Assembly (NCBI RefSeq): GCF_003634315.1
Contig: NZ_RBXL01000001.1
Coordinates: 2,956,501 to 3,020,500, forward strand
DNA: 64,000 nucleotides
DNA from: Thiocapsa rosea
GTDB lineage: Bacteria > Pseudomonadota > Gammaproteobacteria > Chromatiales > Chromatiaceae
Direction: 5' to 3'
A program made the position numbers and the translations under genes. The notes below the pieces were generated by a model, which ran no database searches, was not told where the DNA came from, and worked only from the letters and a program-made list of their open reading frames with translations. Position 1 is the stretch's first letter, and each line of letters starts with the position of its first letter. Shown piece after piece: positions 11,338 through 32,947 of the stretch.

Positions 11338-12300
11338 TAGCTCGCTCCTACGCTCTGCGTGGGAGTGTCGCCCCGACGCTCCGCGTCGCGAGGCCAGAGC
11401 AGGCGGCTCGGCGCATGGCGGGATCCGCGGTGTCGGTGGCAGGGACGCGGAGCGTCCCGAAGAGGCTCCCACGCAGAGCGTGGGAGCCAGTTGGGGGGGA
11501 GCGTGGGAGCCAGTTGGGGGGGAAGCGTGGGAGCCAGCGCGAGCTCGCTCCCACGCTCTGCGTGGGAGTGTCGCCCCGACGCTCCGCGTCGCGAGGCCGG
11601 AGCAGGCGGCTCGGCGCATGGCGGGATCCGCGGCGTTGGTGGCAGGGACGCGGAGCGTCCCGAAGAGGCTCCCACGCAGAGCGTGGGAGCCAGTTGGGGG
11701 GGAGCGTGGGAGCCAGTTGGGGGGGAGCGTGGGAGCCAGTTGGGGGGAAGCGTGGGAGCCAGTTGGGGGAAGCGTGGGAGCGAGTTGGGGGGAAGCGTGG
11801 GAGCCCAGCGCTAGCTCGCTCCCACGCTCTGCGTGGGAGTGTCGCCCCGACGCTCCGCGTCGCGAGGGCGGAGCAGGCGCCTCGGCGCATGGCGGGATCC
11901 GCGGTGTCGGTGGCAGGGACGCCGAGCGTCCCGAAGAGGCTCCCACGCAGAGCGTGGGAGCCAGTTGGGGGGGAGCGTGGGAGCCAGTTGGGGGGGAAGC
12001 GTGGGAGCCAGTTGGGGGGGAAGCGTGGGAGCCCAGCGCGAGCTCGCTCCCACGCTCTGCGTGGGAGTGTCGCCCCGACGCTCCGCGTCGCGAGGCCGGA
12101 GCAGGCGGCTCGGCGCATGGCGGGATCCGCGGCGTTGGTGGCAGGGACGCGGAGCGTCCCGAAGAGGCTCCCACGCAGAGCGTGGGAGCCAGTTGGGGGG
12201 GGAGCGTGGGAGCCAGTTGGGGGGAAGCGTGGGAGCCAGTTGGGGGGGAAGCGTGGGAGCCCAGCGCTAGCTCGCTCCTACGCTCTGCGCGCCGCCGAAT
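11338..12300. repeat. BIME-like hairpin array 1 (four units)
   Basis: There are four tandem units of 200-270 bases. Each has hairpin A (stem CTCCCACGC/GCGTGGGAG), hairpin B (CGACGC-TCC-GCGTCG), a spacer of about 50 bases containing GGATCCGCGGTG, then B and A inverted (GGGACGCGGAGCGTCCC, then the A stem again), and two to four short tails of the form GAGCCAGTTGGGGGG. Units start near 11338, 11541, 11812 and 12041. The left edge abuts a truncated helix-turn-helix gene and the right edge a truncated GT2 gene. The repeats contain almost no stop codons in several frames, which creates long artefactual reading frames. Confidence 0.95.
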
Positions 12301-12327
12301 GGGGCAGGCGAGGGCAGGGTGCACTAT

Positions 12328-12501
12328 CCCCCGCGGGTGCTGGTGCGCATGCGCCTGGGCGGGGTGAGCAATCGCTCGCTGCGCACGATGGCGCGCAAGT
12401 CCTGGGAAGATTACCGGGCCTTGCGGGCGAATGGCGTCGGTGGGCTTGGCGCCTTGGCGTGGAAGAACCTCTCCAAGCTGCCGCAGTTTGTGCGGCGGTG
12501 A
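12328..12501 (+). pseudogene. C-terminal fragment of a GT2 glycosyltransferase, duplicate of the gene at 33020
   Basis: The translation LVRMRLGGVSNRSL, RKSWEDYRALRANG and GGLGALAWKNLSKLPQF matches the last 55 residues of the intact GT2 at 33020-33769 with few differences, and the stop is retained. The 5' part is replaced by hairpin array 1. It stands in the same order after a decarboxylase copy as the intact gene does, which points to a decayed segmental duplicate. Confidence 0.88.
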
Positions 12502-12549
12502 GGCGTTGGTCATTGCGGCCGGCACCGAGCGCGATAAGGCCAACTCATA

Positions 12550-12587
12550 GGTTTAAAATTTTGTTAGGATACGCCCTTATTTAAACC
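12550..12587. promoter_or_regulatory. probable operator: GGTTTAAA inverted repeat
   Basis: A perfect inverted repeat GGTTTAAA...TTTAAACC (22-base gap) lies in an AT-rich stretch directly upstream of the XRE/ImmA gene. An AAGGAGG ribosome-binding site follows at about 12592. Autoregulation by the XRE domain is the likely use, as is common for such antitoxins. Confidence 0.45.
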
Positions 12588-12604
12588 AAACCCAAGGAGG
12601 CGCC

Positions 12605-13684
12605 ATGATTTCAGATCGCATCCGTCAAGCACGACTGGCGGCAGGTCTGACGCTGGGTGCTTTGGGCGAGAAGGTCGGTGTATCGCACACCGCAATCCAG
12701 AAGTACGAGAAGGGTCTGCTAACGCCATCCTCGTTTCAGCTGCTCAAGTTGGCGCGTGCATGCGGCATCCGCACCGAGTATTTTTTTCGCACGCACAGGG
12801 TCGAGCTGCTGCAGCCGGAGTTCCGCAAGCTCTCCTCCTTTGGCAAGAAGGCGCAGGAGGCGCTCAAGCTCAAGGTCGTGGAGTTGGTGGAAAAGCGTGT
12901 CGAGTTGCTCGGTGCCTTTCCTGAGTCGCCGCTGCTGGCGTTCTCTGCGCCCGAAGGGTTGCCCGAACGCATCGCGTCGCTCGATGAGATCGAGGCCTTC
13001 TCGGATCAGGTGCGCAATGCCTGGCAACTGGGCATGAATCCCATTACTGATCTGATCGGCACCCTCGAAGCGGTCGGCTTGCTGGTCATCGTGGTTGATG
13101 AAGAAAACCCCAAGTTCTCAGGATTGACCGCCAAGGCGCGTACCGACGACGGTCGCGTCTATCCCGTGGTGGCGGTGTCCCAGCGCTGGCCCGGAGATCG
13201 CCAGCGTTTCACCCTGGCCCACGAGCTTGGGCATCTACTGCTGGCCGACAGGCTGGTCGACGGCCTCGACGAGGAGAAGGCCTGTGACCGATTCGCCGGG
13301 GCTTTCCTGGCCCCGCGTGTCGCGGTGCTTCACCTGTTGGGGCAACAGCGTCAGGCGCTGGAATGGCAAGAGCTCTATGCGCTCAAGCACGAGTTCGGAC
13401 TGTCGATGACTGGGTGGCTGCAACGGGCGAAGCAGTGTGGCGTGATCAGCGAAGCGGTTCATCTGTCGATGTTCAAGTGGTTTTCAGCCAAGGGCTGGCG
13501 CAAAAATGAGCCGGGCGACTGCTTACCACAGGAACATCCACAGATTTTCGATCAGTTAGTCTATCGAGCCTTGGCCGAGCAGTACATCTCCGAAGGCAAG
13601 GCCGCGGAGCTGTTGGGCATCCCGATGATGCGCTTCCACAAACAACGCCAGCTGGAGTCATCGGATGCGGTTGCTGATCAGTGA
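12605..13684 (+). CDS. XRE-family helix-turn-helix protein with ImmA/IrrE metallopeptidase domain
   Basis: The 359-residue protein has an N-terminal XRE domain (about residues 4-58; IRQARLAAGLTLGALGEKVG, HTAIQKYEKG). A COG2856/ImmA-IrrE domain follows, with the zinc motif HELGH at 206-210 and a following E in DEEKACDRFAGAFLAP. This architecture serves as the antitoxin/regulator half of type II-like modules or as a phage-type repressor protease. It overlaps the next gene, a PIN-like protein, by 20 bases, which supports a toxin-antitoxin pair. A consensus AAGGAGG precedes the ATG. Confidence 0.88.
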   Translation: MISDRIRQARLAAGLTLGALGEKVGVSHTAIQKYEKGLLTPSSFQLLKLARACGIRTEYFFRTHRVELLQPEFRKLSSFGKKAQEALKLKVVELVEKRVELLGAFPESPLLAFSAPEGLPERIASLDEIEAFSDQVRNAWQLGMNPITDLIGTLEAVGLLVIVVDEENPKFSGLTAKARTDDGRVYPVVAVSQRWPGDRQRFTLAHELGHLLLADRLVDGLDEEKACDRFAGAFLAPRVAVLHLLGQQRQALEWQELYALKHEFGLSMTGWLQRAKQCGVISEAVHLSMFKWFSAKGWRKNEPGDCLPQEHPQIFDQLVYRALAEQYISEGKAAELLGIPMMRFHKQRQLESSDAVADQ

Positions 13685-14403: not shown

Positions 14404-14628
14404 ATGAACGCGGTGTTACAACTTCCCGATGATATCGACCTTACACCGTCTGACCTCGCCCTGACCCTGGCTGCTCGGTTATACGAGCAGGGCCGTCTGT
14501 CGGCTGGTCAGGCTGCGCAGTTGGCGGGACTGTCAAAACGCGGGTTTGTTGAACTGCTTGGCAGTCAGCAAGTGGCTCTGTTCAATTACCCGGCGGAGGA
14601 CTTGGCCCGGGATATCGAACGTGCCTGA
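14404..14628 (+). CDS. UPF0175-family antitoxin
   Basis: The 74-residue protein has the UPF0175 pattern: LAARLYEQGRLSAGQAAQLA, then GLSKRGFVELL (helix-turn-helix-like) and a C-terminal DLARDIERA. ATG 14404 follows a strong GAGGAGG; a TTG three bases earlier is less likely. Its end overlaps the GTG of the downstream DUF3368 toxin by 8 bases. UPF0175/DUF3368 is a known type II toxin-antitoxin pairing, and two more copies occur at 18299 and 26927. Confidence 0.85.
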   Translation: MNAVLQLPDDIDLTPSDLALTLAARLYEQGRLSAGQAAQLAGLSKRGFVELLGSQQVALFNYPAEDLARDIERA

Positions 14629-15073
14629 CACCATCTGTAACACGAGCCCCCTGATCGCGCTGGATAACATCGGGTTGTTGGGGCTGCTTGAAGGCGTTTA
14701 CGGCCGTGTTCTCGTTGCCGAGGAGGTGCGCAACGAGTTTGGTTCCGGGCTTCCTGGCTGGATCGATGTGGTGCCTGTTCAAAACCGCAATCTTATCCGT
14801 GCCTTGCAACTTTCAATCGACCTCGGGGAATCAGCTACCCTGGCTCTGGCGATGGAACGCCAGGATGCACGCGTGATTTTGGATGATTTGAAGGGGCGCA
14901 AGGCCGCTCAGCGGCTCGGTGTGTCCTTTACGGGACTCCTCGGGGTGGCGATCAAGGGCAAACAGATGGGCGTGATCGAGTCGGTGGACAACGTGATGAC
15001 CCGTCTGAAGCAAGAGGCTCCCACGCAGAGCGTGGGAGCCAGTTGGGGGGAACCTCAGGGAGCCCAGCGCTAG
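14621..15073 (+). CDS. DUF3368 PIN-like toxin with its C-terminus replaced by repeat-encoded residues
   Basis: From a GTG overlapping the antitoxin, the protein reads CNTSPLIALDNIGLLGLLE, ESATLALAMER and LDDLKGRKAAQRLG, the acidic positions of DUF3368 PIN-like toxins. The family part continues to MTRLKQEA. The last 20 or so residues ([17 protein letters not shown]) are encoded by the start of hairpin array 2. The normal C-terminal helix is therefore lost and swapped for a repeat-derived tail, so activity is uncertain. Confidence 0.8.
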   Translation: MPDTICNTSPLIALDNIGLLGLLEGVYGRVLVAEEVRNEFGSGLPGWIDVVPVQNRNLIRALQLSIDLGESATLALAMERQDARVILDDLKGRKAAQRLGVSFTGLLGVAIKGKQMGVIESVDNVMTRLKQEAPTQSVGASWGEPQGAQR

Positions 15074-15880
15074 CTCGCTCCCACGCTCTGCGTGGGAGTG
15101 TCGCCCCGACGCTCCGCGTCGCGAGGCCAGAGCAGGCGCCTCGGCGCATGGCGGGATCCGCGTTGTCGGTGGCAGGGACGCGGAGCGTCCCGAAGCGGCT
15201 CCCACGCAGAGCGTGGGAGCCAGTTGGGGGGAAGCGTGGGAGCCCAGCGCGAGCTCGCTCCCACGCTCTGCGTGGGAGTGTCGCCCCGACGCTCCGCGTC
15301 GCGAGGCCAGAGCAGGCGCCTCGGCGCATGGCGGGATCCGCGGTGTCGGTGGCAGGGACGCGGAGCGTCCCGAAGAGGCTCCCACGCAGAGCGTGGGAGC
15401 CAGTTGGGGGGGAGCGTGGGAGCCAGTTGGGGGGGAAGCGTGGGAGCCCAGCGCTAGCTCGCTCCCACGCTCTGCGTGGGAGTGTCGCCCCGACGCTCCG
15501 CGTCGCGAGGCCGGAGCAGGCGGCTCGGCGCATGGCGGGATCCGCGGTGTCGGTGGCAGGGACGCCGAGCGTCCCGAAGAGGCTCCCACGCAGAGCGTGG
15601 GAGCCAGTTGGGGGGGAAGCGTGGGAGCCAGTTGGGGGAAGCGTGGGAGCGAGTTGGGGGGAAGCGTGGGAGCCCAGCGGTAGCTCGCTCCCACGCTCTG
15701 CGTGGGAGTGTCGCCGCGACGCTCCGCGTCGCGAGGCCGGAGCAGGCGGCTCGGCGCATGGCGGGATCCGCGGTGTCGGTGGCAGGGACGCGGAGCGTCC
15801 CGAAGAGGCTCCCACGCAGAGCGTGGGAGCCAAGTTGGGGGGAAGCGTGGGAGCCAGTTGGGGGGGAAGCGTGGGAGCGA
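15013..15880. repeat. BIME-like hairpin array 2 (about four units)
   Basis: It has the same unit architecture as array 1: hairpins A and B, a spacer with GGATCCGCG, inverted B and A, and GAGCCAGTTGGGGGG tails. Units begin near 15071, 15251, 15458 and 15688 after a partial unit that fuses to the DUF3368 toxin gene. Units differ from each other by scattered single substitutions (for example GTGTCGCCCCGAC versus GTGTCGCCGCGAC) and by tail number, suggesting growth by unequal exchange. Confidence 0.95.
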
Positions 15881-16493: not shown

Positions 16494-16758
16494 CGTTGGC
16501 TCCAGAATAAGCTACAAGATAGGCTCTCATTTTAGGTCTGATGAGATCTAGGCGCAACGAGAGAACCGCAGGAGCTTATGAGGCGATATTGCAGGCACCG
16601 GAACAACGGCACGCTAGAGGCCCTTGAAGACGAAGAGGCGCCCCGCCGCCGTGCCGATTCTAGATTGGCCCAGTTGCACTGGTAGCACTGGTTCCCAAGC
16701 TCTGCTTGGGAACGAGGGAAGGGAACGAGAGAAACGAGGGAGTACGCCGTTCAGCACT
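16494..16758. other. intergenic stretch with a TTCCCAAGC hairpin
   Basis: No gene was found. At about 16690-16714 a hairpin GTTCCCAAGC-TCT-GCTTGGGAAC is followed by GAGGGAAGGGAACGAGAGAA. A diverged relative with AGCTTGGGAACGAGAGGAACGAG lies at 28110-28140. Part of the promoter region of the relBE-like pair lies at the left end. Confidence 0.5.
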
Positions 16759-16908
16759 TATGGCGAGGGGTCGCAGACCCGGTGCTTCTGTTCGGTCGAC
16801 GATCTGAGCGAGGGCTTCGTTCGTCTGATGAACAGCCTCGATGAGCTGGCCGGGCCGCTGAACCTCGGCAATCCGGTTGAGTTCACCATGATCGAGCTGG
16901 CCGAGAGA
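16759..16908 (+). pseudogene. internal fragment of a UDP-glucuronate decarboxylase gene (copy C)
   Basis: About 50 codons correspond to the intact gene's [20 protein letters not shown] through FTMIELAE, with more substitutions than the other copies (here [20 protein letters not shown]). The right end is cut exactly at hairpin array 3 (GCTGGCCGAGAGAGCGTGGG). It is the most diverged of the copies and so perhaps the oldest or from a different source. Confidence 0.85.
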
Positions 16909-18298
16909 GCGTGGGAGCCAGTTGGGGGGAAGCGTGGGAGCCCAGCGCGAGCTCGCTCCCACGCTCTGCGTGGGAGTGTCGCCCCGACGCTCCGCGTCGC
17001 GAGGCCGGAGCAGTCACCTCGGCGCTTGGCGGGATCGGCGATGTCGGTGGCAGGGACGCGGAGCGTCCCGAAGCGGCTCCCACGCAGAGCGTGGGAGCCA
17101 GTTGGGGGGAAGCGTGGGAGCCAGTTGGGGGGGAAGCGCGCTCTGCGTGGGAGTGTCGCCCCGACGCTCCGCGTCGCGAGGCCGGAGCAGGCGGCTCGGC
17201 GCATGGCGGGATCCGCGGTGTCGGTGGCAGGGACGCGGAGCGTCCCGAAGAGGCTCCCACGCAGAGCGTGGGAGCCAGTTGGGGGGGAGCGTGGGAGTGT
17301 CGCCCCGACGCTCCGCGTCGCGAGGCCAGAGCAGGCGCCTCGGCGCATGGCGGGATCCGCGGTGTCGGTGGCAGGGACGCGGAGCGTCCCGAAGAGGCTC
17401 CCACGCAGAGCGTGGGAGCCAGTTGGGGGTGGAGCGTGGGAGCGAGTTGGGGGGGAAGCGTGGGAGCCCAGCGCTAGCTCGCTCCCACGCTCTGCGTGGG
17501 AGTGTCGCCGCGACGCTCCGCGTCGCGTGGCCGGAGCAGGCGGCTCGGCGCATGGCGGGATCCGCGGTGTCGGTGGCAGGGACGCGGAGCGTCCCGAAGC
17601 GGCTCCCACGCAGAGCGTGGGAGCCAGTTGGGGGGAAGCGTGGGAGCCAGTTGGGGGGGAAGCGTGGGAGCCCAGCGCTAGCTCGCTCCCACGCTCTGCG
17701 TGGGAGTGTCGCCGCGACGCTCCGCGTCGCGAGGCCGGAGCAGGCGCCTCAGCGCATGGCGGGATCCGCGGTGTCGGTGGCAGGGACGCGGAGCGTCCCG
17801 AAGCGGCTCCCACGCAGAGCGTGGGAGCCAGTTGGGGGGGAGCGTGGGAGCCAGTTGGGGGGGAGCGTGGGAGCCAGTTGGGGGGGAAGCGTGGGAGCCC
17901 AGCGCGAGCTCGCTCCCACGCTCTGCGTGGGAGTGTCGCCCCGACGCTCCGCGTCGCGAGGCCGGAGCAGGCGCCTCGGCGCATGGCGGGATCCGCGGTG
18001 TCGGTGGCAGGGACGCGGAGCGTCCCGAAGAGGCTCCCACGCAGAGCGTGGGAGCCAGTTGGGGGGGAGCGTGGGAGCCCAGCGCGAGCTCGCTCCCACG
18101 CTCTGCGTGGGAGTGTCGCCGCGACGCTCCGCGTCGCGAGGCCGGAGCAGGCGCCTCGGCGCATGGCGGGATCGGCGATGTCGGTGGCAGGGACGCGGAG
18201 CGTCCCGAAGCGGCTCCCACGCAGAGCGTGGGAGCCAGTTGGGGGGGAAGCGTGGGAGCGAGTTGGGGGGGAAGCGTGGGAGCCAGTTGGGGGGAAGC
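16909..18298. repeat. BIME-like hairpin array 3 (about eight units, some partial)
   Basis: The largest array in the window repeats the unit of arrays 1 and 2, with full or partial units beginning near 16950, 17140, 17285, 17478, 17690, 17908 and 18088. Two units lack hairpin A at their left end, which looks like the product of recombination between units. It joins a decarboxylase fragment (left) to an antitoxin fragment (right). Frames of up to about 600 codons cross it on both strands and are not genes. Confidence 0.95.
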
Positions 18299-18390
18299 GG
18301 TACCTGGGAGATTTGGGTATCGACGTCGTCCGCTGCGACGAAACCACCGGGCACGATGCCGCTGACCTGGATCGATGGCTCGCGTCGTAA
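18299..18390 (+). pseudogene. C-terminal fragment of a UPF0175-type antitoxin
   Basis: The last 30 codons ([29 protein letters not shown]) are nearly identical to the end of the intact antitoxin at 26927-27265. Everything upstream has been replaced by hairpin array 3. The toxin that follows is intact, so it has lost its cognate antitoxin here; cross-neutralisation by the 26927 copy is possible. Confidence 0.88.
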
Positions 18391-24331: not shown

Positions 24332-24459
24332 GATGTGGTTGCGCGTACCCGCACGGAATCAGACCGTCAGGCCGGTGTGGCGTCGTCGTTCGATCGCGAC
24401 GTGCTGTCGCGTGGGATCGTGTCGTATGGCTGACGCCGCAGCCGTCGTGGTTGGTGCTT
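24332..24459 (+). pseudogene. duplicate shard of an MNT-HEPN module junction
   Basis: The DNA copies 25608-25735 almost base for base: the last 30 codons of the nucleotidyltransferase (RTRTESDRQAGVASSFDRDV) and the first 13 codons of the HEPN gene (MADAAAVVV). It diverges on both sides. It shows that the MNT-HEPN pair, or part of it, was duplicated and then cut down. Confidence 0.85.
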
Positions 24460-24464
24460 CGCTC

Positions 24465-24488
24465 GTGACACCCGCTCTGCGGTGTCAC
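24465..24488. repeat. REP-like hairpin variant (GTGACACC stem)
   Basis: GTGACACC and GGTGTCAC pair perfectly around CGCTCTGC, preceded by GCTC. The surrounding GCTCG...CGCTCTGCG matches hairpin A of the arrays while the stem is a different, compensated sequence. It starts exactly where the MNT-HEPN shard ends. Confidence 0.5.
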
Positions 24489-24570
24489 GCATGCCCCTGG
24501 CGCTCTGCTCCACGTGCCACGATGGCCGGAGTGACGAGCAAGGCCCCGGAGATGAGACCTGAGCGTTTGC

Positions 24571-24978: not shown

Positions 24979-25226
24979 CAGCGGCCCTCGACGGCGTCGA
25001 TGAAGTCAACCGGGGTCTCCGGGATCGGCGGTGCCTGTTCGTCGGGCAGCTTGAAGCAGCCTTCCAGCCGACCGAGCACGCGCCGCTGCGGTGCCTCACC
25101 GACCAACACCAGGCGCACGACCGGCTTGCCGGCGCGGGCGATGACGGCCTCGCCACCGGCCTCCACCTGTTCGATGAGCCGGGACAAGTGTGACTTGGCC
25201 TCGTGGATGTTGAACTGGGTTTGCAT
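24978..25226 (-). CDS. Phd/YefM-type antitoxin partner of VapC
   Basis: The 82-residue protein has MQTQFNIHEAKSHLSRLIEQ and EAVIARAGKPVVRLVLV, the Phd/YefM DNA-binding fold, and a Pro-rich toxin-binding tail (PDEQAPPIPETPVDFIDAVE). The ATG at 25226 gives the family's usual N-terminus. An in-frame ATG 18 codons earlier would add basic residues not seen in the family. Confidence 0.9.
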   Translation of the reverse strand: MQTQFNIHEAKSHLSRLIEQVEAGGEAVIARAGKPVVRLVLVGEAPQRRVLGRLEGCFKLPDEQAPPIPETPVDFIDAVEGR

Positions 25227-25388
25227 GGTTAGTCTCCGGTTAGCTAATCGGAGGATAAAGGTGCACGGCCGACGCGACAAGAGTCGGGCGGCACGGTCGG
25301 GGTCAGGGAGACTCGCACATCATGTGGTTGACACTCAGTCGATCGGTTTGCAGACTTGGCTCCGGGCGTATTTTCTGACGGTTTCCTA

Positions 25389-25709
25389 ATGCAACTCATT
25401 GACGAGACGAAGATCCGGGAAGTCACTGATCGGATCGTCACGGCGCTCGCGCCGGTCCGGGTCGTGTTGTTTGGTTCCTATGTCTGGGGAGAACCCGACA
25501 GCGACAGCGACCTGGACTTGTATGTGATTGTGCCTGATCAGTCGGAGCCGTCTTATCGCTTGGCGCGGCGTGCTTACCATGCCTTGCATGGCGTGAATGT
25601 CCCCGTGGATGTGGTTGTGCGTACCCGCACGGAATCGGACCGTCAGGCCGGTGTGGCGTCGTCGTTCGATCGCGACGTGCTGTCCCGTGGGATCGTCTTG
25701 TATGGCTGA
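25389..25709 (+). CDS. MNT-domain nucleotidyltransferase (MntA-like antitoxin)
   Basis: The 106-residue protein has the minimal nucleotidyltransferase motif GSYVWGEPDSDSDLDLYV (G-S-x10-S-D-x-D-L), then a third carboxylate in VPVDVVVRT. In MNT-HEPN modules this protein modifies and neutralises the HEPN RNase. ATG 25389 is used; the 11 upstream codons in frame lack support. Its stop overlaps the HEPN start by 8 bases. Confidence 0.88.
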   Translation: MQLIDETKIREVTDRIVTALAPVRVVLFGSYVWGEPDSDSDLDLYVIVPDQSEPSYRLARRAYHALHGVNVPVDVVVRTRTESDRQAGVASSFDRDVLSRGIVLYG

Positions 25710-25858
25710 CGCCGCAGCCGTCGTGGTTGATGCTTGGATCGCAAAGGCTGAGCGAGACCTTGCTTCGGCCTCACGACTGTTGGACGGTACGCTCCCGTAT
25801 CCGGATACAGCGGTCTATCTCTGTCAGCAAGCGGGCGAAAAGGCACTCAAGGCTTTTC
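25702..25858 (+). pseudogene. HEPN-domain toxin gene truncated by a REP hairpin
   Basis: From an ATG overlapping mntA the frame reads AWIAKAERDLASASRLLDG and TAVYLCQQAGEKALKAF, the first two helices of a HEPN protein. The C-terminal helix with the R-x4-6-H RNase motif is absent because the DNA becomes a hairpin repeat (CGCTCGCTCCCACGC) right after KAF. An inactive toxin beside an intact MNT partner is inferred. Confidence 0.85.
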
Positions 25859-26003
25859 GCTCGCTCCCACGCTCTGCGTGGGAGTGTCGCCCCGACGCTC
25901 CGCGTCGCGAGCCCGCAGGCGGGTCCAATCGGTGTGGTCACGCGGCGCCAGTGACCGGGTCGCCGACCGTTCGGGTCCGCCGGATTCATCCGGCATCTGG
26001 GGC
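25859..26003. repeat. REP/BIME variant (CAGGCGGGTCC spacer)
   Basis: Hairpins A and B open as in the arrays, but the spacer is CAGGCGGGTCCAATCGG followed by CCGCCGGATTCATCCGGC. A near-identical block occurs at 29971-30116, and the 28838 site shares its second half. It is followed directly by the GACTTCAGTC palindrome family. Confidence 0.85.
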
Positions 26004-26096
26004 CGGGCGACTTCAGTCGCCCGAGTTCGCCGGCACGGCGGACTGAAGTCCGCCTCCCCAGGTGCCGACTGAAGTCGGCGTACCCGGGCTCGTGTA
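26004..26096. repeat. GACTTCAGTC palindrome cluster
   Basis: Three short palindromes in a row: GGGCGACTTCAGTCGCCC, GGCGGACTGAAGTCCGCC and GCCGACTGAAGTCGGC, with CGTACCCGGGCTCGTG at the end. Further copies lie at 28964, 30117 and 44326. Each pairs perfectly with itself. Confidence 0.85.
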
Positions 26097-26098
26097 TC

Positions 26099-26226
26099 TA
26101 GCTCGCTCCCACGCTCCGCGTCGCGTGGCCGGAGCAGGCACCTCGCCCGGCAGGATCCGCGGCGTCGGCGGCAGGGACGCGGAGCGTCCCGAAGAGGCTC
26201 CCACGCAGAGCGTGGGAGCCAGTTGG
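26099..26226. repeat. REP/BIME variant (short spacer, CACCTCGCCCGG)
   Basis: Starting TAGCTCGCTCCCACGC, this copy lacks part of hairpins A and B (CCCACGCTCCGCGTCGCG) but keeps the inverted half ending GTGGGAGCCAGTTGGG. The spacer with CACCTCGCCCGGCAGG is shared with the copies at 31672-32130 near the RAYT gene. Confidence 0.85.
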
Positions 26227-26297
26227 GTGGTGAAGCGGTGGCTGGGCGCGCGCCGGCAACCGCCGGGAGATCGCCGAGTCTGAGGCTGGGCAACGGC

Positions 26298-26555
26298 TCA
26301 CTGAAGGAGCGCATCCGGGGTGTCGGCGGTCAGGATGCGCACGGACCAGCGGCGCAAGGTGTCGCTGTCGGCCGCTTCGATCCGTTCGCGCAGGGCCTCG
26401 GCGGAGTCGGCACCGAATTTGTTTTCGATCAGCCAGAGCAGGAGGTCGGCCTCGCCCTGGCGATACCCTTTCTCGATCCCGGCGCGCTCGACGGTGGTGA
26501 CGTACGGCATCTGTTTGCTCTCCTCGTAGGTGAAGATCTCTTGGCGGAAGGCGGT
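26298..26555 (-). pseudogene. C-terminal fragment of an Rpn/DUF4351-like protein (copy 1)
   Basis: Eighty-six codons (FRQEIFTYEESKQMPYVTTV, GYRQGEADLLLWLIENKFGA, RWSVRILTADTPDALLQ) are almost identical to the end of copy 2 at 29426, including about 60 bases past the stop. The upstream part is replaced by a TAGCTCGCTCCC hairpin exactly after GGCGGTT, where copy 2 continues. Such proteins often belong to the PD-(D/E)XK 'recombination-promoting nuclease' group; the nuclease part is missing. Confidence 0.75.
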
Positions 26556-26775
26556 TTAGCTCGCTCCCACGCTCTGCGTGGGAGTGTCGCCCCGACGCTC
26601 CGCGTCGCGAGGCCGGAGCAGGCGCCTCGGCGCATGGCGGGATCCGCGGTGTCGGTGGCAGGGACGCGGAGCGTCCCGAAGAGGCTCCCACGCAGAGCTT
26701 GGGAGCCAGTTGGGGGGAGCGTGGGAGCCAGTTGGGATAGGATGGGAGTGGAGCGTGGGAGCGAGTTGTATGAGT
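26556..26775. repeat. REP/BIME unit of the array type
   Basis: One complete unit identical in plan to arrays 1-3 (spacer GGATCCGCGGTGTCGG), with degenerate tails (GAGTGGAGCGTGGGAGCGAG) running towards 26820. It caps Rpn-like fragment copy 1. Confidence 0.9.
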
Positions 26776-26926
26776 TATGTCGCGGAGCGCGGGAGTGAGA
26801 TGGTGGTCGGAGCGTGGGGGTGAGTCGGGAAAGATGGCGTTGCATCGCGACGCCTCGGCGACATCGTGGACTACGCGGCGTAGACTACAGTAAAAGGTCT
26901 AAACAGCCGGTCCCCCTAGGTTAACC

Positions 26927-27265
26927 ATGCACGCCACGAATGTCAGAAACCTGAAAAAGAATCCATCCCTCGCGCTGCGCCAGGCAGAAGAGTCGCCCGT
27001 GCTGGTGTTGAAAGGCGATGAGCCTAACGCGCTGATCGTGCACCTCGACAAGACGATGACCGAGGGGGAACAGTCGGTGAGACCGGTCTTGGCCGCGACG
27101 CTATTCCAAGACGGGACACTCTCGCTGGGCGGTGCGGTCCGTCTGAGCGGTATGGTTCTGCCGGCGTTTCTCCAGTACCTGGGAGATCTGGGTATCGACG
27201 TCGTCCGCTGCGACGAAACCACCGGGCACGATGTCGCTGACCTGGATCGATGGCTCGCGTCGTAA
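26927..27265 (+). CDS. UPF0175-type antitoxin, long form
   Basis: The 112-residue protein starts with a Phd-like DNA-binding region (MHATNVRNLKKNPSLALRQ, SPVLVLKGDEPNALIVHLD) and continues into a UPF0175-type segment (AATLFQDGTLSLGGAVRLSG) ending [17 protein letters not shown]. It overlaps the DUF3368 toxin by 16 bases. It is the only full-length copy; the 18299 fragment keeps just its last 30 codons. An AT-richer stretch (ACAGTAAAAGGTCTAAACAG) upstream probably contains the promoter. Confidence 0.85.
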   Translation: MHATNVRNLKKNPSLALRQAEESPVLVLKGDEPNALIVHLDKTMTEGEQSVRPVLAATLFQDGTLSLGGAVRLSGMVLPAFLQYLGDLGIDVVRCDETTGHDVADLDRWLAS

Positions 27266-27541
27266 TCGCCGACGCGGGGCCACTGATCGCCTTTGCCGGT
27301 ATCAACGGGCTTTTTGTCCTGCGGGGGTTGTTTTCGCGGGTCCGAATTACCGGTTCGGTACGGAACGAATGCTTGGTGACCGATGGAGTGGACGCGCAAC
27401 GGATTGCAGCCGCTATCCGGGCTGGCTGGTCGTCGAGGCGCATGGAACGGAATCAGTTCCCCTGACCCCCAGCCTCGGGCTTGGTGAAAGCGATTCGATC
27501 CGACTAGCTCTGGAGGATCCCGAGAATGCATTGCTGATCAT
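27250..27541 (+). pseudogene. DUF3368 toxin, frameshifted and truncated
   Basis: The sequence is nearly identical to the toxin at 18375 up to the tandem CTGG run. Here one CTGG unit is missing (GGGCTGGCTGGTCG versus GGGCTGGCTGGCTGGTCG), so the frame is lost after AAIRAG. The DNA still follows the intact copy until GCATTGCTGATCAT, where a REP fragment replaces the rest. The antitoxin is intact, so the module is antitoxin-only. Confidence 0.9.
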
Positions 27542-27545
27542 CCGG

Positions 27546-27602
27546 GCGACACTCCCACGCAGAGCGTGGGAGCGAGTTCGGATACTGGCTTGGGGGTGAG
27601 TT
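27546..27602. repeat. REP half unit
   Basis: An inverted hairpin A (CTCCCACGC-AGA-GCGTGGGAG) followed by CGAGTTCGGATAC and a second GAGTTCGGATAC forms the junction between the truncated toxin and an oxidoreductase fragment. Confidence 0.75.
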
Positions 27603-27604
27603 CG

Positions 27605-28010
27605 GATACCACTTCATCGACCTGTTGCGGTTTCTGGCCGACGTACCGATTGCGCGGGCCGAGGCGCTGGCGATGGATTCGTGCACCGGTGATTCGGTCA
27701 GCATCAGTCTGGGTTTTGCCGACGGTTCGATCGGCACGGTGCATGCCCCGCCAACGGTAGCAAGGCGTTCCCGAAGGAGCGGCTTGAGGTCTTCGCCGCC
27801 GGGCGGGGGCTGCAATTGGACAACTACCGTCGGTTAACGGGTTACGGCTGGCCCGGCTTCAAGTCCATGAAACTCTGGCATCAGGACAAGGGACAGAAAG
27901 CCTGCGCCGCCGCCTTCGTCGAAGCGCTGCGCAACGGCGGTCCGGCGCCGATTCCGCTGGAGGAGATTCTGGAGGTCAGTCGGGTGGCGATCGAGGTCGC
28001 GCAGCCGTAG
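27605..28010 (+). pseudogene. C-terminal fragment of a Gfo/Idh/MocA-type oxidoreductase
   Basis: The frame reads HFIDLLRFLADVPIARAEAL, then SISLGFADGSIGTVH. After a deletion near 27748 it continues in another frame with RLEVFAAGRGLQLDNYRRLT, GYGWPGFKSMKLWHQDKGQ and PIPLEEILEVSRVAIEVAQP to a stop. The H-F-I-D-x-L-R motif and the end match bi-domain oxidoreductases of polysaccharide loci. The 5' end is cut by a REP. A 24-base shard of the same gene lies at 32924. Confidence 0.75.
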
Positions 28011-28171
28011 GCGCCAGCACGCTTGCGAAGATTCTCGCTTGCTTCACGTGCCCGAGCGATGTCTGATGAGGTGGCGCGGGGATTCGCGAAGCGGAGCTTT
28101 GCGGACCGCGGTACCAAGCGAAGCTTGGGAACGAGAGGAACGAGGGGAGCCGACACGACGAGGATTGCTGA
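28011..28171. other. intergenic stretch with a diverged AGCTTGGGAAC hairpin
   Basis: No complete gene was found. On the minus strand a short frame reads SSDIARAREASENLRKRAGA, perhaps the end of a lost helical protein. CCAAGCGAAGCTTGGGAACG at about 28113-28132 is a relative of the hairpin at 16690. Confidence 0.35.
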
Positions 28172-28615
28172 ATGACGATGACCAATCTTTACGACCACGA
28201 CATTCATGCCTGGACACAACAGACGGCGGAGCTGCTCCGGCAACGCCGATTCCAGGAGTTGGACATCGAGCATTTAGTCGAGGAGCTGGAAACGATGGGG
28301 CGTCGCGATCGCCAGGAGTTGGTCAGTCGACTGAAAATTCTCCTGGGGCATCTGCTCAAATGGCAGTACCAGCCAGCGCATCGGTCCAGTTCCTGGCGAG
28401 GTTCCATCCTGGAGCAAAGGCTACGCATACGCGACCTGCTTCAGGACTCTCCCAGCCTCAAGCCTCTGTTCGCAGAGGCTGCCGCGTCCGCCTATCGAGA
28501 TGGTGCGACATTGGCGAGCAAGGAAACCGGATTGTCGCCGGCGCACTTCCCCGAGGTGTTGCCTTACGCGATGGATCGTTTGCTGGAGGACGATTGGTTG
28601 CCTGGAGATACCTGA
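28172..28615 (+). CDS. DUF29-family protein
   Basis: The 147-residue protein has the DUF29 signature: LYDHDIHAWTQQTAELLRQR, DIEHLVEELETMGRRDRQEL, LKILLGHLLKWQYQP and ILEQRLRIRDLLQDSPSL. The family is all-helical, common in cyanobacteria and gammaproteobacteria, and has no agreed function; it often lies in toxin-antitoxin-rich regions. The gene looks intact. Confidence 0.88.
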   Translation: MTMTNLYDHDIHAWTQQTAELLRQRRFQELDIEHLVEELETMGRRDRQELVSRLKILLGHLLKWQYQPAHRSSSWRGSILEQRLRIRDLLQDSPSLKPLFAEAAASAYRDGATLASKETGLSPAHFPEVLPYAMDRLLEDDWLPGDT

Positions 28616-28699
28616 CAGGCCACCCTGCGTCCCCTCGCTGAATCCGACCTCAATCCCCTGGCGAGTCACATCATTTCGACTGCTTGGAGTCGGAGAGTG

Positions 28700-28837
28700 A
28701 TGTGCAAGTACGAGACGATGATCTACTGGAGTGAAGAGGACCAAGCCGACGTGGCTGAAGTCCCTGGGCTCCCCGGGTGCATGGCCCATGGCGAGAGCGA
28801 TGAGGCTGCCCAGGTGTGGGCGAGGAGCGGATCTTGT
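28700..28837 (+). pseudogene. HicB-type antitoxin N-terminal fragment
   Basis: CKYETMIYWSEEDQADVAEV, PGLPGCMAHGESDEAA is the partially degraded RNase-H-like fold of HicB. After about 45 codons the DNA turns into a TAGCTCGCTCCC hairpin, removing the C-terminal DNA-binding domain. No hicA gene is adjacent. Confidence 0.75.
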
Positions 28838-28963
28838 AGCTCGCTCCCACGCGGAGCGTGGGAGCGAGTTGTGGTGCGGAGCGGAGCGTGGGAGTGAGTT
28901 GACATCGCCAGTGACCGGGTCGCCGACCGTCCGGGTCCGCCGGATTCATCCGGCACCTGGGGA
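28838..28963. repeat. REP hairpins plus variant spacer
   Basis: Hairpin A (CTCCCACGC-GGA-GCGTGGGAG), degenerate GAGTTGTGGTGCGGAGCG tails and the CCGCCGGATTCATCCGGC spacer element form a bridge between the hicB fragment and a GACTTCAGTC cluster. Confidence 0.8.
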
Positions 28964-29054
28964 CGGGCGACTTCAGTCGCCCGAGTTTGCCGGCACGGCG
29001 GACTGAAGTCCGCCTCCCCGGGTGCCGACTGAAGTCGGCGTACCCGGGCTCGTG
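28964..29054. repeat. GACTTCAGTC palindrome cluster
   Basis: The same three palindromes in the same order as at 26004, nearly identical, ending in CGTACCCGGGCTCGTG. Confidence 0.85.
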
Positions 29055-29191
29055 TAGCTCGCTCCCACGCTCTGCGTGGGAGTGTCGCCGCGACGCTCCG
29101 CGTCGCGAGCGTGCAGGCGGCTCCAAGCGGCGTGGTCATGCGGTGGCGATGAGGCGGGACGCGGAGCGTCCAAACTACACTCCCACGCGGA
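29055..29191. repeat. REP/BIME variant split by an insertion in its last hairpin
   Basis: Hairpins A and B, the GTGCAGGCGGCTCC spacer, inverted B (GGGACGCGGAGCGTCC) and the left arm of the final hairpin A (CTCCCACGCGGA). The right arm (GGAGCGTGGGAGCG) lies beyond 29344, after a 153-bp insert. Confidence 0.85.
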
Positions 29192-29344
29192 GAGACTGTG
29201 CAAGTATTCCCGCTCGGGATCGAAGACGACGGTTCCGCGTCGGTTGGGCCGACGCAGGAGGCCCAACAATCCAGCGGTGACCTCAACCTCATCGATCGGG
29301 CTTCGTTCCTCGGCCCAACCCACAAGGAATTCTTGCACGGTCTC
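29192..29344. mobile_element. putative 153-bp MITE inserted in a REP hairpin loop
   Basis: Terminal inverted repeats GAGACTGTGCAAGTATTC and GAATTCTTGCACGGTCTC match at 16 of 18 positions. The flanks carry a 3-bp direct repeat GGA (29189-29191 and 29345-29347), the loop of hairpin A. Deleting the element plus one GGA restores an ordinary REP hairpin. On the minus strand it has an open frame (FLVGWAEERSPIDEVEVTAG, RRGTVVFDPEREYLHS) that might be part of a gene fragment. A solo end occurs at 18871. Confidence 0.6.
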
Positions 29345-29425
29345 GGAGCGTGGGAGCGAGTACTGGTGGCTGGGCGCGCGCCGGCAACCGCCGGGAGATC
29401 GCCGAGTCCGAGGCTGGGCAACGGC

Positions 29426-29970
29426 TCACTGAAGGAGCGCATCCGGGGTGTCGGCGGTCAGGATGCGCACGGACCAGCGGCGCAAGGTGTCGCTGTCGGC
29501 CGCTTCGATCCGTTCGCGCAGGGCCTCGGCGGAGTCGGCACCGAATTTGTTTTCGATCAGCCAGAGCAGGAGGTCGGCCTCGCCCTGGCGATACCCTTTC
29601 TCGATCCCGGCGCGCTCGACGGTGGTGACGTACGGCATCTGTTTGCTCTCCTCGTAGGTGAAGATCTCTTGGCGGAAGGCGGTTTCCAAGGTTGCGGGTA
29701 ATTGGATCATCCAATCGATGACGCGAAACAGCTCCAGGATGGTCTTGCGCGCGTAGCCACGATCATACATCAGGCGAATCAGGCGAAACTTCCAGGCTTT
29801 ACGGGTTTCGGCATCCGTGGTGGCCTTGGCGCGGATCTGGGCCATGACGACCAGGGCAAACGGGTTCTCGCTGGCCTCCAGCGCGGGCCAGCCTTCGGGG
29901 GTGTCCCAGTCGATGAGCTTGACCACGGGGAAGCGAAAGTCGAGCGCACAGCCCCAGAGGTCGTCGTGAT
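29426..29970 (-). pseudogene. Rpn/DUF4351-like protein lacking its N-terminus (copy 2)
   Basis: About 180 codons remain: LDFRFPVVKLIDWDTPEGWP, NPFALVVMAQIRAKATTDAE, KAWKFRLIRLMYDRGYARKT, ILELFRVIDWMIQLP, then the part shared with copy 1. This pattern matches the middle and end of Rpn-type (PD-(D/E)XK nuclease/'putative transposase') proteins. The catalytic N-terminal region is missing; the frame abuts a TAGCTCGCTCCC hairpin right after GTCGTGATC. Confidence 0.75.
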
Positions 29971-30362
29971 CTAGCTCGCTCCCACGCTCCGCGTGGGAGT
30001 GTCGCCCCGACGCTCCGCGTCGCGAGCCCGCAGGCGGGTCCAATCGGTGTGGTCACGCGGCGCCAGTGACCGGGTCGCCGACCGTCCGGGTCCGCCGGAT
30101 TCATCCGGCACCTGGGGACGGGCGACTTCAGTCGCCCGAGTTTGCCGGCACGGCGGACTGAAGTCCGCCTCCCCAGGTTGCCGACTGAAGTCGGCGTACC
30201 CGGGCTCGTTTAGCTCGCTCCCACGCTCTGCGTGGGAGTGTCGCCCCGACGCTCCGCGTCGCGAGCCCGCAGGCGGCTCCAATCGGCGTGGTCATGCGGT
30301 GGTGGTGAGACGGGACGCGGAGCGTCCAAACGACACTCCCACGCGGAGCGTGGGAGCGAGTT
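29971..30362. repeat. REP variant, GACTTCAGTC cluster, second REP variant
   Basis: This tripartite block combines a REP with the CAGGCGGGTCC spacer, the three GACTTCAGTC palindromes (30115-30210), then a REP with the CAGGCGGCTCCAATCGG spacer and final hairpins ending GTGGGAGCGAGTTG. The first two parts duplicate 25859-26096 almost exactly. The DNA from 30363 to 30480 has no recognised content. Confidence 0.88.
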
Positions 30363-30480
30363 GTCGGCGGGTTCCGGGTTGATGACGCCTCCATCCCACG
30401 CTGGCGCCTCAAGCCCCTTCTACGGCGCTGACCGGGTATCCTTCACCGTGTCGTCGACATGAGGCGAAGGCATCAGAACG

Positions 30481-30563
30481 AAACCGCGTCCAGAGCGAGA
30501 TGCGTCATTGTCACGTGGCGTTTGGCTTCGGAGATGTCCTCGATCTTGGTGAGGCGCGGTTTA
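30481..30563. repeat. AAACCGCG/CGCGGTTT element
   Basis: It starts AAACCGCGTCCAGAGCGA and ends GAGGCGCGGTTTA, with GATGCGTCATTGTCAC inside. It lies about 100 bases upstream of the intact decarboxylase gene. A separate GCCGGCTCCGGCGG/TCGGAGCCGGCG hairpin follows at 30594-30624. Confidence 0.8.
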
Positions 30564-30667
30564 AAAGTTAATATTATTCATAACGTTAAGCTGCGCCGGC
30601 TCCGGCGGTCGTCGGAGCCGGCGTGGCCAAGCCAATCATATGTGATGGAAAGGTAAAGGACGGTACG

Positions 30668-31636
30668 ATGAACTACTCACTGCGCAAACGCATCCTGGTC
30701 ACCGGCGGCGCCGGTTTCCTCGGCAGCCACCTCTGCGAGCGTCTGCTCGCCGAAGGCCACGACGTCATCTGTCTGGACAACTTCTTCACCGGGACCAAGG
30801 ACAACATCGCCCATCTGCTTGAGAATCGCTACTTCGAGCTGATGCGTCACGACGTCACCTTTCCGCTCTACGTCGAGGTCGACGAGATCTACAACCTGGC
30901 CTGCCCGGCATCCCCGATCCACTATCAGTTCGATCCGGTGCAGACCACCAAGACCAGCGTGCATGGCGCCATCAACATGCTCGGCCTGGCCAAGCGTGTG
31001 AAGGCCAAGATCTTTCAAGCCTCCACCAGCGAGGTCTACGGCGATCCCGCCATTCACCCCCAGCCCGAGCACTACTGGGGTCACGTCAACCCCATCGGTC
31101 CGCGCTCCTGCTACGACGAGGGTAAGCGCTGCGCCGAGACGCTCTTCTTCGACTACCGCCGCCAAAACAACCTGAAGATCAAGGTCGCGCGCATCTTCAA
31201 CACCTACGGGCCGCGGATGCACCCCAACGACGGGCGGGTGGTCTCGAACTTCATCGTTCAGGCGCTGCGCAACGAGCCGATCACCATCTACGGCGAGGGG
31301 ACGCAGACGCGCTCCTTCTGCTATGTCGACGACCTGATCGAGGGCTTCATCCGGCTGATGGATAGCCCCGATGATCTGACCGGGCCGGTCAACCTCGGCA
31401 ACCCCGGCGAGTTCACCATGATCGAGTTGGCCGAGACCGTTCTGGAGCTGACCGGCTCGCGCTCGGCGCTTGTGCATGTGGCGTTGCCGCAGGATGACCC
31501 CAAGCAGCGACAACCGGACATCGGCTTGGCTCGGGCGCGGCTCGGGTGGGAGCCGAGGGTGGCGTTGCGGGATGGATTGACGTCGACGATTGAGTATTTT
31601 GATGGGTTTTTGCGGGGGGTGCGGGGGGATGCTTGA
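30668..31636 (+). CDS. UDP-glucuronate decarboxylase (UDP-xylose synthase), NAD-dependent
   Basis: The 322-residue extended SDR enzyme has GGAGFLGSH at 13-21, LDNFFTG, and the catalytic YxxxK in [11 protein letters not shown], then [16 protein letters not shown] and [15 protein letters not shown], the UXS/Uxs1 signature. It converts UDP-glucuronate to UDP-xylose through a 4-keto intermediate, supplying a polysaccharide precursor. ATG 30668 is chosen because broken copy B starts at the same codon and the N-terminus reaches the Rossmann motif at the normal distance. It is the only intact copy of five. Confidence 0.95.
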
Positions 31637-31671
31637 GGCTCGGCACTTGGGTGTTGGGGAGGAGCGTTGCT

Positions 31672-32130
31672 TGCTCTCATGCTCCGCGTGGGAGTGTCGC
31701 CCCGACGCTCCGCGTCGCGTGGCCGAAGCAGGCACCTCGCCCGGCAGGATCCGCGGTGTCGGCGGCAGGGACGCGGAGCGTCCCGAAGAGGCTCCCACGC
31801 AGAGCGTGGGAGCCAGTTGGATAGCTCGTAGCTCACTCCCACGCTCCGTGATAGCTCGTAGCTCGCTCCCACGCTCCGCGTGGGAGTGTCGCCCCGACGC
31901 TCCGCGTCGTGTGGCCGGAGCAGGCGCCTCGCCCGGCAGGATCCGCGGTGTCGGCGGCAGGGACGCGGAGCGTCCCGAAGAGGCTCCCACGCAGAGCGTG
32001 GGAGCCAGTTGGTAGCTCGCTCCCACGCTCCGCGTGGGAGTGTCGCCCCGACGCTCCGCGTCTCGTGGCCGAAGCAGGCACCTCGCCCGGCAGGATCCGC
32101 GGTATCGGCGGCAGGGACGCGGAGCCTGGC
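31672..32130. repeat. REP/BIME cluster downstream of the RAYT gene
   Basis: Three units carry the CACCTCGCCCGGCAGG spacer, separated by short hairpins such as TAGCTCGTAGCTCGCTCCC. The last unit is cut off in its inverted half (GGGACGCGGAGCCTGGC) directly at the RAYT stop. The 5' tetranucleotide GTAG precedes several hairpins, the position where RAYT proteins read REP sequences. Confidence 0.92.
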
Positions 32131-32131
32131 T

Positions 32132-32662
32132 CTACCAATCCGTCACCACGTCAAGCAATCCCTCCAGCCCTTCGTAATTCCGCGCGCTCGAGTATCGCCA
32201 ACATAAGGGATCATCGACATAACCCCGCTTCACCGGGTTATTGTGGATGTAATCGAGCTTCTGCCGCATCATGGTTTCGCCCTCGATCTGCTCGGGGTGC
32301 GATCCCTCCTGCCACACTTGGTGCTCGCGATCGCGCTTGTGCCGGCTCCGGTACCAGACCAAGAGAGAGAGCGCCGGAGAGTTCCGCTCGCGCATCCGAT
32401 CGACCATCTTCCGAGCGGTGAATGATTTGAAGCTACTGATCGAGCGCGCGAGTCCCGGTCCACCGGCAATCAGGTGGCAGTGGTTCTCCATGATGATGTA
32501 GCCGTGGATCATGAGACCGCGCTCGCGTTGGAGGAACCGCAGGGAATCCAGCAAGATCAGTGCGTTGGCTGGTTGAGCGAAAAGCGGCAACCATTTGAGC
32601 GCTGTGCATGTAAGGAAATGCGGCGCGTCTGGCTCGAGGAAATGGTATCGGTCACGGCCCAT
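32132..32662 (-). CDS. REP-associated tyrosine transposase (RAYT, Y1/HUH family)
   Basis: The 176-residue protein starts MGRDRYHFLEPDAPHFLTCT and has MIHGYIIMENHCHLIAGG, in which H-C-H is the HUH metal motif. Y of MMRQKLDYIHNNPVKRGYV is the expected catalytic tyrosine, followed by DPLCWRYSSARNY. This is a single-domain TnpA-REP protein. Such enzymes nick single-stranded REP hairpins and are thought to disperse them. ATG 32662 is used because the in-frame extension upstream is repeat-encoded. REP units flank it on both sides. Confidence 0.9.
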   Translation of the reverse strand: MGRDRYHFLEPDAPHFLTCTALKWLPLFAQPANALILLDSLRFLQRERGLMIHGYIIMENHCHLIAGGPGLARSISSFKSFTARKMVDRMRERNSPALSLLVWYRSRHKRDREHQVWQEGSHPEQIEGETMMRQKLDYIHNNPVKRGYVDDPLCWRYSSARNYEGLEGLLDVVTDW

Positions 32663-32721
32663 GGCTGAAGCGTACACAATTCGGATGTATTTGGCATCTG
32701 CCGTTTCGCGCGCGGTAGCGC

Positions 32722-32925
32722 GTAGCTCGCTCCCACGCTCCGCGTGGGAGTGTCGCCGCGACGCTCCGCGTCGCGAGTGCGCAGGCGGCTCCAATCGGCG
32801 TGGTCATGCGGTGGTGGTGAGACGGGACGCGGAGCGTCCAAACTACACTCCCACGCGGAGCGTGGGAGCGAGTTGTGGTGCGGAGCGTGGGAGCGAGTTG
32901 TGGTGCGGGGCGTGGGAGCGAGTCA
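32722..32925. repeat. REP/BIME unit upstream of the RAYT gene
   Basis: It starts GTAGCTCGCTCCCACGC about 60 bases upstream of the RAYT start codon and contains the GTGCGCAGGCGGCTCC spacer, inverted hairpins and three GAGCGAGTTGTGGTGCG tails. With the cluster at 31672 it gives the flanking-REP arrangement typical of RAYT loci. Confidence 0.9.
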
Positions 32926-32947
32926 TCGACCTGTTGCGGTTTCTTGA
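32924..32947 (+). pseudogene. 24-base shard of the Gfo/Idh/MocA gene
   Basis: TCATCGACCTGTTGCGGTTT is shared exactly with the start of the oxidoreductase fragment at 27612 (coding FIDLLRF). It follows a REP tail immediately and is lost after a few more bases. Confidence 0.5.

Follow-up and report, generated by a model that had tools for sequence, protein, structure and literature searches.

What ties a transposase-like gene to the dense arrays of hairpins that surround it, and which part of those hairpins does its protein read? The question is raised by a stretch of Thiocapsa rosea DNA (hereafter the window: 64,000 nucleotides, C1:2956501-3020500 of a 6.11 Mb genome in two contigs) that holds a gene for a REP-associated tyrosine transposase (RAYT; REP, repetitive extragenic palindromic) among tandem arrays and smaller sites of one repeat family. 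A preliminary description took the repeats for GTAG-tagged REPs that the RAYT had made and spread. I conclude that the locus is probably a locally amplified, non-GTAG variant of the REP/RAYT system with paired hairpins, the protein being predicted to recognise an apex common to hairpins A and B and to insert REP doublets (REPINs) in trans. The comparisons below establish each REP as a predicted outer hairpin A plus a shorter inner hairpin B, with three matching loop-proximal base pairs and, at the foot of A, either CTCG or CTGG. A predicted REPIN, about 150 bp long, consists of two inverted REPs, and REPINs stand on both sides of the RAYT gene.

The gene occupies 32132-32662 on the minus strand and encodes 176 amino acids. 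As had been proposed, the product is a RAYT: it matches the NCBIfam model NF047646 (REP_Tyr_transpos) at 94.1 bits (cut-off 80; E 7e-27) and carries the HuH motif NHCH, WQ, YIHNNP and an SS in its C-terminal tail, with 77 residues from the first H of HuH to the Y, which makes it a member of the REP-associated single-domain HuH-Y1 family. A Pfam scan of the protein gave no family above cut-off, Y1_Tnp reaching E 0.016, under its own cut-off. The ATG start is common to six close copies, and the nearest named loci (93-95% over the whole protein) are two in Thiocapsa marina, one in T. roseopersicina and one in a Thiocapsa metagenome-assembled genome (MAG). Unlike multicopy IS200/IS605-type elements the gene is single-copy, the next best match in the T. 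rosea genome being 48% identical, and recurring REP hairpins lie on both its flanks, as the preliminary description held and as is expected of a RAYT (TnpA-REP). On the 3' side these are two REPINs and one half-unit (31669-32069), and on the 5' side a REPIN with tail repeats (32723-32900). The RAYT is probably a domesticated transposase amid dozens of copies of its predicted recognition hairpins.

Hairpin A reads CTCCCACGC-TCC/TCT-GCGTGGGAG and is followed, after about 9 bases, by hairpin B (GACGC-TCC-GCGTC), a spacer, and then B and A inverted. This A-B-spacer-B'-A' layout, an inverted REP pair with a spacer that could form one long hairpin, is that of a REPIN or bacterial interspersed mosaic element (BIME), just as had been claimed; folded as single-stranded DNA, one unit scored z -6.05 against shuffles, of which 0/200 were as good. 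The full unit is 148 bp long, and 13 such units stand in three head-to-tail arrays of a single orientation (plus strand), essentially where the preliminary description had placed them. Array 1 (11338-12289) has four full units and a partial unit at its end; array 2 (15012-15880) has four full units and one partial, its left edge inside an open reading frame (14546-15073) with no family match; array 3 (16906-18299) has seven units, five of them full, and adjoins a fragment of a nucleotide-sugar epimerase gene on the left and a stretch continuous in one relative (L083) on the right. Units are linked by tails of 22-24 bp that usually combine A's 3' arm with GCCAGTTGGGGGG; the window has 37 tail matches. 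Mean unit identity within arrays 1, 2 and 3 is 0.974, 0.977 and 0.969, and between arrays it is 0.960-0.976; because the latter is as high as the former, the arrays appear to share a common recent source or to be homogenised.

A model of the half-unit, run over 184 kb around the locus, gave 84 matches at E < 1e-3, of which 52 fall in the window and 30 in a second cluster of the same hairpin family just upstream of it, at -30 to -13 kb (minus coordinates lie upstream of the window start). On reversed versions of all searched sequence the model gave two weak matches (E 0.31 and 0.34). At E <= 0.1 the model accounts for 3,165 bases within 11338-32930, spacers excluded, so the earlier figure of about 4 kb of hairpins was fair. 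In place of "at least eight" smaller sites there are 11 that have strong half-unit matches, located from 19918 to 32900. Rfam at gathering thresholds gave no match anywhere in the window.

What did not hold is the description of the hairpin foot, where units had been said to start GTAGCTCGCTCCC with GTAG as the tetranucleotide recognised. There are six copies of GTAGCTCGCTCCC genome-wide, all in the window, against 78 exact copies of hairpin A; three of the six lie in the REP groups beside the RAYT (31858, 32012 and 32722), whereas 11 of the 13 full array units start with GCGAGCTCG or GCTAGCTCG. At the left ends of array units CTCG stands immediately before the stem in 12/12 exact hairpins, and at the right ends CTGG does so in 15/16; elsewhere, CTCG is often found at right ends too. 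The same tag recurs in related loci. Counting the 12 bases at the outer-stem foot (8 before the stem and 4 within it) in the 28 related loci that have hairpin pairs, I found CT[CG]G in 22 (frequency in random 12-mers of the same flanks, 0.145), CT[CG]G or ATCG in 27 (0.183), and GT[AG]G in a single locus, that of the window's own RAYT (chance, 0.071). GTAG REPs have GTAG or GTGG 0-2 nt from the foot and one hairpin per REP; here CTCG or CTGG takes that place, the only GT[AG]G locus has its tag 4 nt off, and there are two hairpins per REP, as in 28 of 40 related loci. By the text of PMC6006769, GT[AG]G is likewise absent in classes 2.6 and 3.

Is the second hairpin a peculiarity of T. rosea, or does it belong to the system? 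From 68 fetched loci, in which the same gene sometimes appeared twice, I kept 40 whose RAYTs were less than 90% identical, had at least 140 aligned residues and no stop, and had at least 500 bp of flank; four of the 65 RAYT match rows (G161:C75, G180:C22, G157:C28 and G154:C65) lie outside this set, and a broken copy in G004 (L062, L076, L077) was excluded. A pair was defined as an adjacent outer (stem at least 8) and inner (5-8) hairpin, both GC-closed, 2-15 nt apart and at most 350 bp from the RAYT. Such pairs were found in 28 of the 40 loci, in 0/1000 shuffled flanks and in 4/38 control stretches 700-1050 bp away. The filter fixes the first two loop-proximal pairs as GC and leaves the third free, and it is the third pair that proved the same in the outer and inner hairpin in all 28 loci and in 86/86 instances (permutation mean 15.7; 28 was reached in 0/100,000). 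By locus the third pair is C in 20, A in six and G in two, and the fourth pair is also identical in 18 of the 28.

These apex types follow the RAYT tree, on which all labels require three changes. The six A-type rows fall in one clade of eight (support 100/97), together with a G-type row, L132 (majority AGGC/AGGC), that adjoins L071 (AAGC/AAGC) with support 98/80, and between these two the third pair differs in outer and inner hairpin alike. L141, the second G-type row, is on a long branch and its placement is unsure. Protein columns 103, 104, 111 and 112 consistently differ between A-type and C-type RAYTs, a separation that may reflect descent alone. A lone hairpin of the AAGC apex type, GGTTCCCAAGCTCTGCTTGGGAACGAG, also occurs in the window at 16687-16711; among the RAYT matches of the T. 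rosea genome there is none of the AAGC-hairpin type (as in G009, at 52%).

The distribution of the repeat agrees with a close tie to this RAYT. When hairpin A is mapped against the RAYT genome-wide, as the preliminary description had suggested, 71 of the 78 exact copies lie within 59 kb (2,930,423-2,989,367), in place of the genome-wide dispersal usual for REPINs and BIMEs, to which Marinomonas is a printed exception (PMC8266576). Across the 11 genomes of the genus, hairpin A numbers 78, 42, 20, 17 and 5 in the five that have a RAYT at least 93% identical, and 0, 0, 0, 1, 1 and 3 in the six that do not. A distant RAYT (48-55%) is present in three of those six, so a RAYT as such is insufficient. 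Among 210 genomes of the order, the 24-base pattern CTCCCACGCTCYGCGTGGGAGTGT occurs 56, 35, 15, 12 and 4 times in the five carriers of the RAYT at 93% or more, and among the other 205 it occurs 1-3 times in seven and is absent from 198. At least four copies are thus found in 5/5 carriers and in 0/205 others; many repeats in a genome without this RAYT clade, which had been named as the observation that would speak against the association, were not met in any of the 205. From this pattern of co-occurrence I infer that the RAYT and the hairpin repeat belong together. The second RAYT of T. rosea (48% identical) has different hairpins around it, those on the 5' side including a pair built to this plan.

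Within genomes, the copies tend to be concentrated. All 20 pattern places of G004, whose coordinates are those of T. roseopersicina, are on one contig, at most 75 kb from the RAYT, whereas the 41 of G009 are spread over 1.27-1.57 Mb (32), near 4.25 Mb (3) and beside the close RAYT at 5.49 Mb (6); a 52% RAYT with AAGC hairpins sits in the 1.27-1.57 Mb region. Concentration therefore seems common and not always beside the RAYT, and G009 rules out confinement by distance from the RAYT as a general rule. Since the T. rosea cluster lies near the contig middle, the replication terminus was also considered as an explanation; it was rejected, as the cluster (2.93-2.99 Mb) is far from both dnaA (1.602 Mb) and a dif-like site (4.564 Mb).

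Evidence that REPINs have entered genes comes from upstream of the window. An intact copy of a gene whose translation reads as a putative nucleotide-sugar dehydrogenase spans -22413 to -20971. Two other copies (-14800 and -13733) have about 56 bp replaced by a REPIN of about 155 bp with a decayed-looking right half; between those two edges a third interrupted copy (-20496) has about 452 bp, with two REPINs and tails. The insertion point is uninterrupted in the loci of six relatives (L089, L090, L091, L094, L095 and L100). One REPIN against two at a single point points to a unit number that changes in place after insertion. The proposal that the RAYT made and spread the arrays accordingly divides: the association between gene and repeat is supported, but the tandem arrays may or may not be the work of the RAYT itself, unit number apparently being altered on the spot.

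Other REP edges have a different character. At 25859, 26557, 27527, 29971 and 16906 they end gene stretches at base precision, and the other half of the same gene was not found beyond the REP at any of these five edges, which makes them junctions rather than clean insertions. The nucleotide-sugar epimerase gene is intact at 30623-31636 and recurs as fragments at 9538-10222, 16746-16906 and 23185-23368, and 9.5-33 kb of the window is a mosaic of 0.2-1 kb blocks that turn up in relatives at other sites rich in REPs. All this lies in a polysaccharide region that also has an IS21-type pair and numerous small genes from toxin-antitoxin families (Phd/YefM, PIN, ParE, UPF0175, a nucleotidyltransferase). 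Two smaller observations may be recorded here. The middle part missing from the epimerase fragment 9538-10222 is largely the content of the fragment 23185-23368, and one relative's locus (L084 636-8267, from G009 C1:1280001-1300000) has four spaced copies of the homologue of 29346-29970, each starting from a short REP match.

A RAYT can also be seen at a site that is occupied in some Thiocapsa species and empty in others. T. roseopersicina and T. marina have a RAYT with REPs on both sides at one common site, before what I take to be a CBS-domain gene; between the same anchors five other genomes (G000, G006, G009, G001 and G005) have 81-252 bp, the site being judged in 7 of the 11 genus genomes. 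G001 and G005 are without a close-type RAYT, which favours gain in T. roseopersicina and T. marina, and since each of their RAYT copies has the other as its nearest (94.5%) in a comparison of six, their arrival was probably one old event. By eye, about 50 bp of target sequence stands on both sides of the insert in the alignment. IS200/IS605 chemistry would not lead one to expect this, and deletion between the repeats of about 50 bp in the other lineages is the alternative. REPtrons are described as unable to self-propagate (PMC3733652), which counts against a moving RAYT.

Taken together, these observations are consistent with the following series of steps. In single-stranded DNA the RAYT would bind the apex that A and B share, CT[CG]G serving as the guide where other systems have GTAG, and it would insert REPINs in trans. 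Slippage or unequal recombination could then produce further head-to-tail copies of an inserted REPIN and of the 22-24 bp piece on its right; recombination between REPIN copies would scramble neighbouring genes, and relaxed selection in a region of polysaccharide and toxin-antitoxin-family genes may lead to the local pile-up. For the cell the arrays are, I think, by-products. A wider claim is held more tentatively, as possible rather than probable: that systems of this kind in Chromatiales, a Gallionellaceae MAG and cyanobacteria form a separate REP/RAYT class, in which the protein reads two hairpins with co-varying apexes guided by CT[CG]G, and which in Thiocapsa has moved, with REPINs entering genes and, at least once, a RAYT with its REPs reaching a new site.

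Could the locus be explained without a new kind of REP? Ordinary GTAG REPs and BIMEs that a standard RAYT generated and dispersed would fit the presence of GTAGCTCGCTCCC in the REP groups on both sides of the gene and a protein that scores above the RAYT cut-off, but the offset of the GTAG from the stem, its six copies beside 78 hairpins, its single occurrence in 28 related loci and the double hairpin of each REP make this quite improbable. That the arrays are recombination debris is unlikely but deserves more weight: in this view dispersed repeats grew by slippage and unequal crossing-over as the region decayed, and today the RAYT is a bystander. The units are indeed tandem, head to tail and with partial tails, and gene fragments and duplications lie all around. 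A bystander does not readily explain why the RAYT clade matches the repeat at the genome level (at least four copies in every carrier and in no non-carrier), why apex type follows the RAYT tree, or why REPINs sit in gene copies at a point uninterrupted in relatives. The mosaic of small blocks shared with other REP-rich places in relatives, and a REP-flanked RAYT found at one site in two species and absent from it in five, might also suggest that the hairpins bound integron-like mobile gene cassettes, with the RAYT moving REP-gene-REP units. For many block ends (24336, 24485, 25299 and 25324 among them) the nearest REP is over 300 bp away, and the relative's locus L096 has several blocks, all oriented alike, within a single stretch, so that the mosaic is in part an old locus that has been scrambled; I give this reading only a slight chance.

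The paired-hairpin interpretation has its own difficulties. The permutations ignore relatedness, which inflates the third-pair result, and when the whole apex including the loop is compared with at most one mismatch, only 16/40 loci pass (shuffles 0/800, controls 2/38). Twelve of the 40 related RAYTs have no hairpin pair by the filter, and eight of these, grouped in one clade (99/96), have one A-like hairpin that carries the same apex and is followed by ATGCATAC, so hairpin B would seem inessential in the wider family. Most G009 copies (32/41) lie far from the close RAYT. The difference between one REPIN and two in the dehydrogenase copies could also be loss, and, with unit identity as high between as within arrays, separate slippage in three places is insufficient alone; by this comparison one array must have been copied or homogenised. 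In the single-hairpin clade (L130, L133, L135, L138, L139, L143, L144 and L156) the hairpin resembles TCGTTCCCACGC..GCGTGGGAATGCATAC, has an inverted copy across the gene, and is accompanied by ATGCAT, seemingly in place of hairpin B.

If the paired-hairpin interpretation is right, the locus touches on two open questions, how RAYTs choose their REPs and how the repeats persist. The natural third-pair variants (C, A and G), matched to RAYT clades, offer ready protein-DNA pairs for recognition swap tests, and the single and double REPINs at one point and the RAYT presence/absence site are concrete cases of insertion and of change in array size.

The smaller sites combine the same parts in several ways, and apart from one half-unit on the minus strand they are assigned no strand. 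A single REPIN stands at 19918-20079. At 25859-26225 a half-unit is followed by another short repeat and more REP units, the left edge breaking a stretch continuous in L084; at 26557-26768 a REPIN with tails cuts short, at its left edge, a copy of the segment that ends at 29684 (99.7% identical over 300 bp); and the minus-strand half-unit (27527-27580) lies at a truncation point. A half-unit with tail precedes a REPIN with an incomplete right half at 28837-29192, and a half-unit and a REPIN at 29971-30363 truncate, at the left edge, a stretch continuous in L084. Another short repeat family, of several small palindromes (GACTTCAGTCGCC, GGACTGAAGTCCGCC), is nested between REP units at 25914-26090, 28902-29050 and 30030-30205 and recurs inverted near 44.4 kb (44325-44442). 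The window also has a 23-bp tandem repeat, GGGTGGCCGGATTCAACCGGAAT, in 4.6 copies (22955-23058), and dense simple repeats of TTGTCG, CGAAGC and ACAACG at 44136-44681.

How does this system compare with those already described? By its motifs, compared through the motif table alone, the protein best matches the TnpA-Y1 subclass 2.6 row of Table 1 in PMC6006769 (RAYT group 5 of Bertels et al., as given there): both have NH-H, WQ, YIH[QN]NP and an SS tail, and the median length of the subclass is 179 aa against 176 aa here, although the middle HuH residue is C where the subclass lists L/I/V. The flanking structures of subclass 2.6, identified there by manual inspection, also lack GT[AG]G and have copies elsewhere in the genome. 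They are termed atypical and weaker and come mostly from Bacteroidetes, in contrast to the strong paired hairpins with a common apex found here in Chromatiales, a Gallionellaceae MAG and cyanobacteria. The biochemical models of RAYT action (E. coli, Stenotrophomonas and Marinomonas) use GTAG-tagged REPs, according to the text of PMC8266576. In Marinomonas, REPtrons Ma and Mb resemble the T. rosea locus in having REPs concentrated near the RAYT gene, but their RAYTs belong to groups 2 and 3, and the Mb REP has a 5-bp stem and a GTAG tag (PMC8266576). GTAG REPs and TIRtrons (TIR, terminal inverted repeat) share with this locus tandem-reiterated clusters and REPs inside genes, Thauera MZ1T has REP arrays beside exopolysaccharide genes, and some RAYT-like genes have double palindromic TIRs reminiscent of the paired hairpins; the tag is GTAG, or the TIRs have a common GGGGWSAS, where CT[CG]G is found here (PMC3733652). 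A literature search for Thiocapsa with repetitive extragenic palindromic gave no match.

The closest parallel for the arrays is Pseudomonas fluorescens SBW25, whose REPINs also consist of inverted REPs with a spacer, cluster beside RAYTs and form tandem clusters that include flanking sequence (PMC3116915). Each SBW25 REP has one palindrome, not two hairpins, and the doublets are randomly spread in extragenic space, whereas 71/78 copies here lie within 59 kb. The preliminary description had called the extent of expansion unusual. Up to seven units do exceed the largest ordered tandem cluster of SBW25, four REPINs over more than 700 bp, but Table 4 of that paper also has clusters of up to 12 REPs, and tandem clusters and REPs near RAYTs were already in print (PMC3116915, PMC3733652, PMC8266576), so this is a difference of degree. 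In the same papers there is precedent for REP/RAYT systems and REPINs as such, for REPs in genes and for arrays near exopolysaccharide genes. The text of PMC3116915, PMC2817692, PMC8266576, PMC3733652 and PMC6006769, figures and supplements aside, does not mention an apex shared by the two hairpins of a REP. As far as the text of the cited papers goes, then, two features of the T. rosea system appear new: hairpins that come in pairs and share an apex matched to RAYT clades, and the CT[CG]G tag at their foot.

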